Notes under the pieces: generated by a model
Told to the model about the DNA's origin: nothing
Seen by the model: only the letters and a program-made list of their open reading frames with translations
The model's database searches: none
Source of the DNA: Micromonospora chersina
GTDB lineage: Bacteria; Actinomycetota; Actinomycetes; Mycobacteriales; Micromonosporaceae
NCBI RefSeq assembly: GCF_900091475.1
Contig: NZ_FMIB01000002.1
Coordinates: forward strand, 6,324,001-6,388,000
Direction: 5' to 3'
DNA: 64,000 nucleotides
Shown: positions 26,223 to 28,512 of the stretch, in pieces
How the letters are laid out: each line of letters opens with the position of its first letter
Numbering within the stretch: position 1 is the stretch's first letter
Program-made: the position numbers and the translations under genes

Positions 26223-26777
26223 TCAGCGCGGCGCGGGCCGGAGCAGGCGTACCCGGCCGGCGAGCTGGGCCGCGACGGCGCCGCCGGCCCGGGCGACGGC
26301 CGGCAGTCGGCGCGGGCGGGGGGCGGTGCGGCCGTCGTAGCGGCTCGCCGCCTCGCGGACGGCCAGCTCCTCCGCGCCCAGCGGTGGCAGCGTGCCCCGG
26401 TCGCGCAGCTCCCGGGCCAGGTCCCAACCGTCGCGCAGGGAGCCGTTGGTGGGCCGGCCGGCCGCCCAGCCGGCGAAGGTGGCCGCCCAGGCGTCGCCGA
26501 GGCCGGCGGCGAGCAGCGGCCAGTGCCGGGCCACGTCGCCGGCCCGCTTGCGCAGCAGCGCCCGCCGGGCCGCCTCGACCGGCGCGGGGGCGAACCCGCC
26601 CGGCAGCGGACCACCGGCCACCAGCGCCGCGACCAGTTCCGCCTGCCGCGCGGCCAGGTCGCCACCGGCCACCGGTCCGCCGGGCGCCCGGAGGCGGCTC
26701 CCGCCCGGCGCGGCCAGCTCCCCGCCGCTCACCGGGCCGCCGGGAGCGCCCGGCGGGGTCAGGTCCCCGCCGCTCAC
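26223..26777 (-). CDS. Partner-like protein of the DUF692 enzyme, unknown
   Basis: A 184-aa soluble protein without a named domain that I can assign. The segment LLRKRAGDVARHWPLLAAGL, then WAATFAGWAAGRPTNGSLRDG and WDLARELRDRGTLPPLGAEE, recalls the helical N-terminal domain of DUF2063-type partners of DUF692 enzymes, but the likeness is only in layout. The first 50 residues are Gly/Pro-rich. The GTG at 26777 overlaps the DUF692 stop by 4 nt, so it is translationally coupled and probably works with that enzyme. Confidence 0.7.
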   Translation of the reverse strand: MSGGDLTPPGAPGGPVSGGELAAPGGSRLRAPGGPVAGGDLAARQAELVAALVAGGPLPGGFAPAPVEAARRALLRKRAGDVARHWPLLAAGLGDAWAATFAGWAAGRPTNGSLRDGWDLARELRDRGTLPPLGAEELAVREAASRYDGRTAPRPRRLPAVARAGGAVAAQLAGRVRLLRPAPR

Positions 26778-27598
26778 GTGACCACCGGGTACCCGGAGGC
26801 GGCGGCCAGGGCGTCCAGCTCGCCGCGCAGCTCGGCGGCGGGCGGGTAGTGGCCGTCGCGTTCCAGCAGCAGCGCCGGGGGCCGGCGGCGGCCGCACAGC
26901 TCGCCGACCAGGTCGAGCACCTCGGCGGGGACCGGATCGGTGTGCGTGTCGTGGTAGAAGCCGCAGTGCTCGGCGCCGCCGGCCACGTGCACGTAGGCGA
27001 TCCGGTCCAGCGGCAGCCGGTCCAGCAGGGCGGCCGGGTCGCCGCCCCGGTTGCGGGCGTTGGCGTGCACGTTGGCGACGTCGAGCAGCAGCAGCGCCCC
27101 GGTGGCGTCGAGGATCTCGGTGAGGAAGTCGGCCTCGTCCAGCTCGTCGTCGGGCCAGTCGAAGAGGGCGGCGATCGGCTCCAGGGCCAGCGGCACCGGC
27201 AGCTCCGCCTGCGCCCGCCGGACGTTGGCCACCACGGCGGCCACGGCCTCGCGGCTGCGCGGCAGCGGCAGCAGGTGGCCGGCCTCCAGGCCGCCGGCCC
27301 GGACGAACGCGATGTGCTCGCTGACCAGCGGCGCGTCCAGCGCCGCGGCCACACCGGCCAGGTGCGCCACCCGGGCCGGTTCCACCGGTTCCGCGCCGCC
27401 GAGGGAGAGCTTCACGCCGTGGGGTACGACGGTGACGCCGCGCCCGCGCAGCTCGGCCAGGCCGTCGGGGAGCGGCCCGGCCGGGGCGACCGTCTCCGCG
27501 ACCACCTCGACGAAGCGGAGCCCGGGCAGGGCGGCCACGAAGCCGGCGATCTCCGGCCGCCACCCGATGCCCACGCCGGACGGGCCGGCGGTCGTCAT
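26774..27598 (-). CDS. DUF692 (MNIO-family) iron enzyme
   Basis: A 274-aa TIM-barrel protein of the family that includes MbnB, TglH and BufB, which use a multinuclear iron site to modify cysteine or other residues of peptide substrates. Likely metal ligands are visible in order: PHGVKLSLGG, LVSEHIAFV, LALEPIAALF, LLLDVANVHANARN, IAYVHVAGGAEHCGFYHDTH and LLLERDGHY. ATG 27598 overlaps the stop of the upstream membrane protein (ATGA), and its own stop overlaps the next gene, so all three are coupled. The substrate is inferred to be the Cys-rich tail of the upstream protein. Confidence 0.88.
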   Translation of the reverse strand: MTTAGPSGVGIGWRPEIAGFVAALPGLRFVEVVAETVAPAGPLPDGLAELRGRGVTVVPHGVKLSLGGAEPVEPARVAHLAGVAAALDAPLVSEHIAFVRAGGLEAGHLLPLPRSREAVAAVVANVRRAQAELPVPLALEPIAALFDWPDDELDEADFLTEILDATGALLLLDVANVHANARNRGGDPAALLDRLPLDRIAYVHVAGGAEHCGFYHDTHTDPVPAEVLDLVGELCGRRRPPALLLERDGHYPPAAELRGELDALAAASGYPVVT

Positions 27599-28512
27599 CC
27601 GCCGCACCCGCCGCCCCCGCAGCCGCCACCGCCACCGCAGGAGCTGCCCCCGCCGCAGGAGCTGCCGCCCCCGCAGGAGCTGCCGCCTCCGCCCGAGCTG
27701 CCCGAGCTGCCGCTCGCCCCCATGGCCTGGCGCTGGATCTCGGCCTGCTCGGCGAAGCCCGGGTCCATGCTCCACAGGGTGGCGGTGCCGAACAGCGCGA
27801 CGCCCATGGCCGCGTCGGACGGGCCGTAGGTGGCGTACGCCGGTGCGGCGGAGGGGCGCAGCCAGGTGTGCTGGCGGCGCAGCTCGCGCAGCGCCTGGTT
27901 GGCCGCCCGGGTGCGCCACGGCACCCGGTTGAGCAGCAGGAACGCGATGAAGAGCGGCACCATGGTGAGCAGGAGCCAGCCGGCGGGCCGGCCGTTGGAG
28001 ATGCCGACGAAGGCCCGGACGAAGCCGAGCGCCAGCAGTGCCCCGACCAGCAGCGATCCGCGGCGCAGCGACGCCCGCCGCTCCTTGTCCAGCGCCAGGC
28101 CCCGCCGCACCAGACCGTCGCGCAGCTCGTCGAGCGCGCGCCGGACCCACTCGTCCCGGCTCAGCTCCCGGGAGCGCAGGCCCCGGCTCGCCGCGTGGTG
28201 GATCGCCTGGTCCAGGGGGGTGACCCCGGCCGGCAGCGGGCCGCCGGTGGTGAGCCGCCGGTCGGGACGTACGCCGACCGCGCCGGCGCGGCGCAGCCCG
28301 CCGAGCGCGGTCCAGACGGCGAGCTGCTCGCCCCCGTTGAGGTACGCGGCCTGCTGCGGCCCGAGCGGCCCGGCGCTCTGCACGGGGGTGCCGGCCAGCG
28401 CCCGCCGGCGGTACACCAAGGCGCCGGCGACCAGTACGACGGCCGCCACGAGGTACCAGCGGAGGAAGACGGGGCCGGGGATGCCCCAGGTGTCGCCCGC
28501 GAGGACTGTCAT
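27595..28512 (-). CDS. TIGR04222-type membrane protein with a Gly/Ser/Cys tail
   Basis: A 305-aa protein with membrane helices at about residues 19-35 (YLVAAVVLVAGALVY) and 155-200 (LLVGALLALGFV, LLLTMVPLFIAFLLL), a conserved cytosolic segment (AAYLNGGEQLAVWTALGGLR) and a final 40-residue tail of SSCGGG repeats with five cysteines. I recall this as TIGR04222, often found beside DUF692 genes. ATG 28512 has AGGAGC about 8 nt upstream. The tail looks like a built-in modification substrate rather than a structural domain. Confidence 0.82.
   Translation of the reverse strand: MTVLAGDTWGIPGPVFLRWYLVAAVVLVAGALVYRRRALAGTPVQSAGPLGPQQAAYLNGGEQLAVWTALGGLRRAGAVGVRPDRRLTTGGPLPAGVTPLDQAIHHAASRGLRSRELSRDEWVRRALDELRDGLVRRGLALDKERRASLRRGSLLVGALLALGFVRAFVGISNGRPAGWLLLTMVPLFIAFLLLNRVPWRTRAANQALRELRRQHTWLRPSAAPAYATYGPSDAAMGVALFGTATLWSMDPGFAEQAEIQRQAMGASGSSGSSGGGGSSCGGGSSCGGGSSCGGGGGCGGGGCGG
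27600..27690. repeat. Short tandem repeat encoding the SSCGGG tail
   Basis: The motif GCAGGAGCTGCC recurs at about 18-bp steps (three close copies between about 27637 and 27685), followed by a run of Gly/Cys codons to the gene end. Read on the minus strand it encodes repeated Ser-Ser-Cys-Gly-Gly-Gly. Such repeats can change copy number by slippage. Confidence 0.7.

Follow-up and report, generated by a model that had tools for sequence, protein, structure and literature searches.

A Micromonospora operon predicted to modify a cysteine-rich tail held on a membrane protein

The window analysed here, 64,000 nucleotides of the Micromonospora chersina genome (NCBI RefSeq assembly GCF_900091475.1, contig NZ_FMIB01000002.1, positions 6,324,001 to 6,388,000), contains a three-gene operon that probably yields a membrane-anchored product resembling a ribosomally synthesized and post-translationally modified peptide (RiPP). 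The genes encode a TIGR04222 membrane protein with a Cys-containing, Gly/Ser-rich C-terminal tail, an iron enzyme of the DUF692 (MNIO) family and a small partner protein (Table 1). In the scheme that we favour, the MNIO and its DUF2063-like partner would oxidatively modify the Cys residues of the tail, which would stay tethered to its anchor and, in the window protein, more likely face the cytoplasm; the product would be a group formed from Cys, as in bufferins and methanobactins, and might bind copper or another metal at the membrane. The grounds are the operon, the tail, the active-site residues, the likeness of the partner's fold to that of known partners, the pattern of presence of Cys tails and MNIOs, and the asymmetry of charges around the membrane helices; from these features of sequence and models we infer the modification, the Cys-derived group and the metal binding. 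The initial annotation, which also regarded the tail as the substrate, knew of no characterised example, and none appeared among the papers listed for TIGR04222, MNIO or DUF692, but the idea itself is not new: subsets of TIGR04222 proteins have already been proposed as MNIO substrates, as a prediction (Antoine et al., 2025; PMC12452194).

Table 1. Features of the operon in the window, and related single-helix proteins found at other loci.
Feature	Coordinates	Strand	Description	Evidence
TIGR04222 domain-containing membrane protein, putative MNIO substrate	27595..28512	-	305 aa	NCBIfam TIGR04222, E=3.1e-58
Gly/Ser/Cys tail	27598..27720	-	residues 265-305, five Cys, C-terminus -CGG	sequence; low pLDDT
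Transmembrane helix 1	28414..28470	-	residues 15-33	hydrophobicity, AF2 model
Transmembrane helix 2	28000..28056	-	residues 153-171	hydrophobicity, AF2 model
Transmembrane helix 3	27931..27987	-	residues 176-194	hydrophobicity, AF2 model
DUF692/MNIO enzyme	26774..27598	-	274 aa	Pfam PF05114, E=3.4e-76
MNIO partner	26223..26777	-	184 aa, GTG start; PME-type 2 of PMC12452194	PF26136 tag in homologues
Single-helix Gly/His/Cys-tailed proteins, directly after MNIO	L198:4816-5403, L199, L200, L202		~60-100 aa	

The gene-level observations of the initial annotation all stood: consecutive genes overlap by 4 nt (27595-27598 and 26774-26777), the membrane protein ends in a five-Cys tail, and this is followed by a DUF692 enzyme with its ligand residues and by a 184-aa partner-like protein, within a span (26223-28512) that coincides exactly with the gene limits. 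The membrane protein matches the TIGR04222 profile at positions 1-229 of 229 (197.1 bits against a curated cut-off of 43). The enzyme scores 256 bits for PF05114 (cut-off 25), and its residues H60, H95, E140, D173, N176, H204, D217, H219 and E246 are the same in TglH (8hci alignment) and invariant across 81 aligned MNIO sequences, its own included; we take these columns to be the metal ligands. Its best NCBIfam match is MNIO_BufB (NF050167), at 172.3 bits well below the equivalog cut-off of 310, and for MbnB (TIGR04159) it reaches 22.6 bits against a curated cut-off of 325.

The model of the partner appears closest in fold to TglI and MbnC, and 104 of 107 MNIOs have a partner downstream or fused to them. 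Homologues of the window partner are tagged PF26136 (SCO6045-like C-terminal domain), and a Pfam scan of the protein itself gave no match, DUF2063 included, as expected of a PME-type 2 partner (adjoining an MNIO, without a DUF2063 Pfam match). Its first ~45 residues (window 26643-26777) form an imperfect triple repeat (SGGDL.., SGGEL.., AGGDL..). Many Micromonospora homologues are ~148 aa long which, together with the repeat, suggests that the true start may lie downstream of the GTG used here. The named nearest relatives of both the membrane protein and the partner are from Micromonospora.

The five tail Cys (C280, C286, C292, C298 and C303) stand in a region modelled by AlphaFold2 (AF2) with a predicted local distance difference test score (pLDDT) below 50 at residues 267-282 and 284-303. 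As a simple repeat, such a tail could be functionless low-complexity drift, its Cys codons arising by slippage in GC-rich repeats, and the tails of 18 of the 19 DUF2207 relatives read are free of Cys. We find this explanation scarcely credible, given that 110 of the 120 best TIGR04222 matches to the window protein end in -CGG (those named by source being Micromonospora or Salinispora), that Cys-tailed proteins are spread over 13 family codes, with f44 outside the class, and that all four Gly codons are used in the window tail (GGC 15, GGG 5, GGA 2, GGT 2). A few of the best matches, such as P0213 (Micromonospora) and P0228 (Salinispora), keep the last Cys alone. In the first sample, 68 Cys-tailed proteins have 358 tail Cys, of which 356 precede G, S or A, a restriction that is only partly informative because these residues also form most of the tail. 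In methanobactins and bufferins, Cys likewise stands beside Gly or Ser.

The association of the tail with the MNIO was analysed in two samples. The TIGR04222 family is common: 110 of 393 sampled genomes of the class and 193 of 397 of the order gave such genes. The class sample comprises 139 TIGR04222 genes from 111 genomes, including G329, with G013 and matches under the cut-off omitted. The order sample comprises 63 genes in 57 genomes outside genus g1, taken from among the matches listed, with family f81 and the TIGR04222 genes of G1047 and G1063 (both searched for MNIO) set aside. The profile search scored at most 7 first-look candidates for TIGR04222 in each genome, and genes, Cys-tailed ones included, may have been missed. 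A tail was scored as a Cys tail if three or more Cys stood in a small-residue context within the last 80 residues, and an MNIO as adjacent if it lay at most 1.3 kb away on the same strand.

An MNIO is present in the genome for 125 of the 127 Cys-tailed TIGR04222 genes of both samples (68 of 70 in the class sample, 57 of 57 in the order sample), and the two misses are explained by an extension in the wrong frame (G514) and by a contig ending inside an MNIO-like open reading frame (ORF; G449, E 4e-5). In the class sample, an MNIO is adjacent to 58 Cys-tailed genes and to 8 of the others, against 12 and 61, respectively, without one; for Gly/Ser-rich tails only, an MNIO is adjacent to 55 of 60 Cys-tailed genes versus 0 of 10 others. 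A Cys tail is missing from a second TIGR04222 gene in the window's genome, at a distance of 5.5 Mb, and also from G990 (genus g2), the sole order-sample genome without an MNIO match, and from its congener G648, which likewise lacks the MNIO. Where the MNIO is absent, the TIGR04222 scaffold and Gly-rich tails devoid of Cys remain. In the wider published set, MNIO is absent from 490 of 1,372 TIGR04222 genomes, and C-proximal Cys are missing in more than a quarter of TIGR04222 proteins (PMC12452194).

Two loci appear degraded. In G900 (L271), the MNIO gene is broken up across three reading frames, and the neighbouring TIGR04222 gene retains one tail Cys; in the congener G853, the MNIO match is intact and the tail has four Cys. 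L174 (G423) looks like a decayed locus, in which the Cys tail continues into the remnant of a partner-like sequence and no MNIO is adjacent.

On trees of the domain, the tail state changes 11 times among 128 rows (class sample) and 16 times among 191 rows (both samples); these trees omit 11 of 139 and 11 of 202 rows (G514 and ten short domains, including the Cys-tailed G449, G459 and G442), and the larger one scores G900 as lacking a working MNIO. Its 191 rows divide into 123 with Cys tail and MNIO, 0 with Cys tail and no MNIO (a cell that excludes G449 for its short domain), 42 with MNIO and no tail, and 26 with neither. Independent pairs differing in MNIO gave 3.3 concordant and 0 opposed of 7 at the genome level, and 5.2 and 0 of 14 for adjacency; pairs differing in tail gave 2.0 versus 0 of 11 and 4.5 versus 0.3 of 11, respectively. 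In the 128-row tree, tail against adjacency gave 0.7 concordant and 0.3 opposed of 3.

Several results weigh against a strict pairing. None of the independent-pair contrasts is significant at the median: gene counts are not independent because of relatedness, and the independent changes are too few to reach significance. Strict adjacency in the order sample is not significant either (40 Cys-tailed genes with an adjacent MNIO and 17 without, 3 and 3 among the other genes; p=0.37), partly because of extra genes inside operons and partly because of MNIOs on other contigs. In G513, an MNIO match lies 165 bp from a TIGR04222 domain with a Cys-free tail. Finally, in Streptomyces (genus g8), 17 of the 36 class-sample genomes with TIGR04222 have a Cys-tailed gene; none was found in the other 19, of which 18 nonetheless have an MNIO. 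The expectation of the initial annotation that tail Cys would be conserved in homologues next to DUF692 is thus contradicted by G513 and by a large clade of Streptomyces. Its proposal that the tail is the substrate retains the support of a Cys tail that tracks the MNIO in most lineages sampled, although the pairing is not universal.

In tail-less Streptomyces, as at L206 and L209, an MNIO-partner fusion lies near a TIGR04222 protein ending, for example, in ...LRAAFAHREPHHHAFHRHD, and no Cys-tailed ORF was seen in the flanking DNA examined around the 80 nearest named relatives of the Streptomyces fusion (L333-L412). Six other Streptomyces (G323, G319, G582, G671, G606 and G705) carry Cys-tailed and tail-less copies in tandem. 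L206 has a PTH2-domain gene upstream, as in the adjamnio-II group of PMC12452194. The active-site columns are invariant in an alignment that includes MNIOs from the tail-less clade, so the enzyme there probably still has a substrate. One may ask whether the MNIO acts on something else, the tail being an unmodified thiol-rich binder of metal or a redox element that shares regulation with it; the retention of MNIO, partner and active-site residues in a large clade with no Cys tail nearby would fit, as would the ability of some MNIOs to modify Asp, Asn or Phe (PMC12452194). We consider this unlikely, as Cys tails were not found without an MNIO, apart from G514 and G449, even though scaffolds and Gly-rich tails persist there, and as the context of the Cys is restricted; no systematic search for other Cys-rich ORFs beside MNIO genes was made.

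Some loci carry similar tails on other anchors. In genus g291 (G462, G621, G597, G524 and G469), the Cys-tailed TIGR04222 gene and the nearest MNIO lie on different contigs or from 640 kb to megabases apart. In four of these genomes (G621, G597, G524 and G469), the MNIO is followed by small proteins made of one helix, an Arg-rich stretch and a Gly/His/Cys tail; the two of G597 (60 and 90 aa; L198) gave no match to the TIGR04222 profile. In genus g391, L261 has two further Cys-tailed ORFs matching TIGR04222 after the first. At L261, L262, L266 and L272 of that genus, a single MNIO has several ORFs for Cys-tailed membrane proteins in its vicinity, and some of these tails are almost pure Ser-Cys. 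The recurrence of a similar tail on different anchors, albeit at few loci, suggests that the tail, more than the TIGR04222 scaffold, may be the constant part of the system.

Modification of the window tail, the reading that we prefer, leaves the side of the membrane to be considered. The MNIO and partner are taken as cytoplasmic because neither has an export signal. The three clear hydrophobic helices of the window protein are matched by AF2 helices at 13-40, 143-172 and 178-195, and topology was scored on proteins with three such helices. Among those with a Cys tail, 119 of 120 have a density of Lys and Arg that favours an inside tail: 62 of 63 in the first sample (63 of 64 if both rows of the window protein are counted) and 57 of 57 in the second. 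With tail-less proteins included, the first-sample rows give 98 of 111 tail-in and 13 tail-out, and the loop between helices 2 and 3, taken alone as the outer side, gives 85 and 26. Moreover, the single-helix tailed proteins of four species are Arg-rich right after the helix, with no Lys or Arg between the likely start and the helix, so that an inside tail is predicted for them as well.

The same chemistry could instead give a surface metal-binding tail, the location held in the published view and in the initial annotation, if a fourth helix just ahead of the tail carried it across the membrane after modification. On a crude, home-made insertion scale, a possible fourth helix, comparable to a weak one, precedes the tail in 57 of 122 Cys-tailed proteins, chiefly in f3 (32/44), f2 (11/11) and f123 (6/6). 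By contrast, such calls concern 0 of 17 Streptomyces proteins, 0 of 15 in f94, 3 of 16 in f93 and 2 of 8 in the window's own family, where the window segment scores +3.7 (first-sample median +4.6; helices 1 to 3, -0.2 to +1.3) and is modelled by AF2 as a broken helix; the single-helix proteins also argue the other way. A separate helix count gave four helices in 37 of 126 proteins and fewer than three in 25. The charges flanking the three clear helices thus speak against the surface location of the initial annotation, which the possible fourth one keeps viable. We regard an outside tail as a real possibility, though not the one to bet on; for the window protein, a cytoplasmic tail appears somewhat more likely, the fourth segment being what decides, and in the wider family the tail may face either side.

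A bolder generalization, which we advance only tentatively, is that interchangeable anchors (TIGR04222 scaffolds, sometimes several per operon, or single-helix proteins of ~60-100 aa) might hold Gly/Cys tails in the cytoplasm, where the MNIO-partner pair would make a membrane-tethered metal buffer or relay at the inner face. To our knowledge, the characterised products of MNIOs are peptides; if an intact membrane protein does carry a modified tail, MNIO chemistry would extend to proteins. The side of the membrane would decide between a surface chelator and an inner-face buffer.

Among known systems, TglHI and MbnBC also pair an MNIO with a partner, whose TglI and MbnC folds the window partner model appears to resemble, but their precursors are peptides, unlike the window substrate, and the window MNIO is far from MbnB in score. 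Bufferins (BufA/BufB/BufC) similarly combine a Cys-containing substrate, an MNIO and a DUF2063-type partner; their precursors have Sec signal peptides (PMC12452194), whereas the window substrate is a polytopic membrane protein, its partner is short and its MNIO falls well under the BufB cut-off. The TIGR04222 profile also matches DUF2207 (PF20990 C-terminal domain) over 171 columns that include the helix pair (probability 97, E 3.8e-11), a relationship without mention in the main text of PMC12452194; DUF2207 proteins too have low-complexity C-terminal tails, one of the 19 read having a single Cys.

The closest counterparts are the TIGR04222-MNIO-PME-type 2 clusters of PMC12452194, with the gene set and logic of the window. 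In that study, 40% of more than 1,000 Cys-containing, signal-less proteins whose genes precede an MNIO gene belong to TIGR04222, with Micromonospora examples of the membrane protein (WP_179806563, 300 aa) and of the partner (WP_091237309, 158 aa). It predicts PME-type 2 genes for at least 10% of the clusters with TIGR04222; here, a partner accompanies nearly every MNIO examined. The tails are placed in the periplasm by that paper, whereas the charges in the present analysis point inside.
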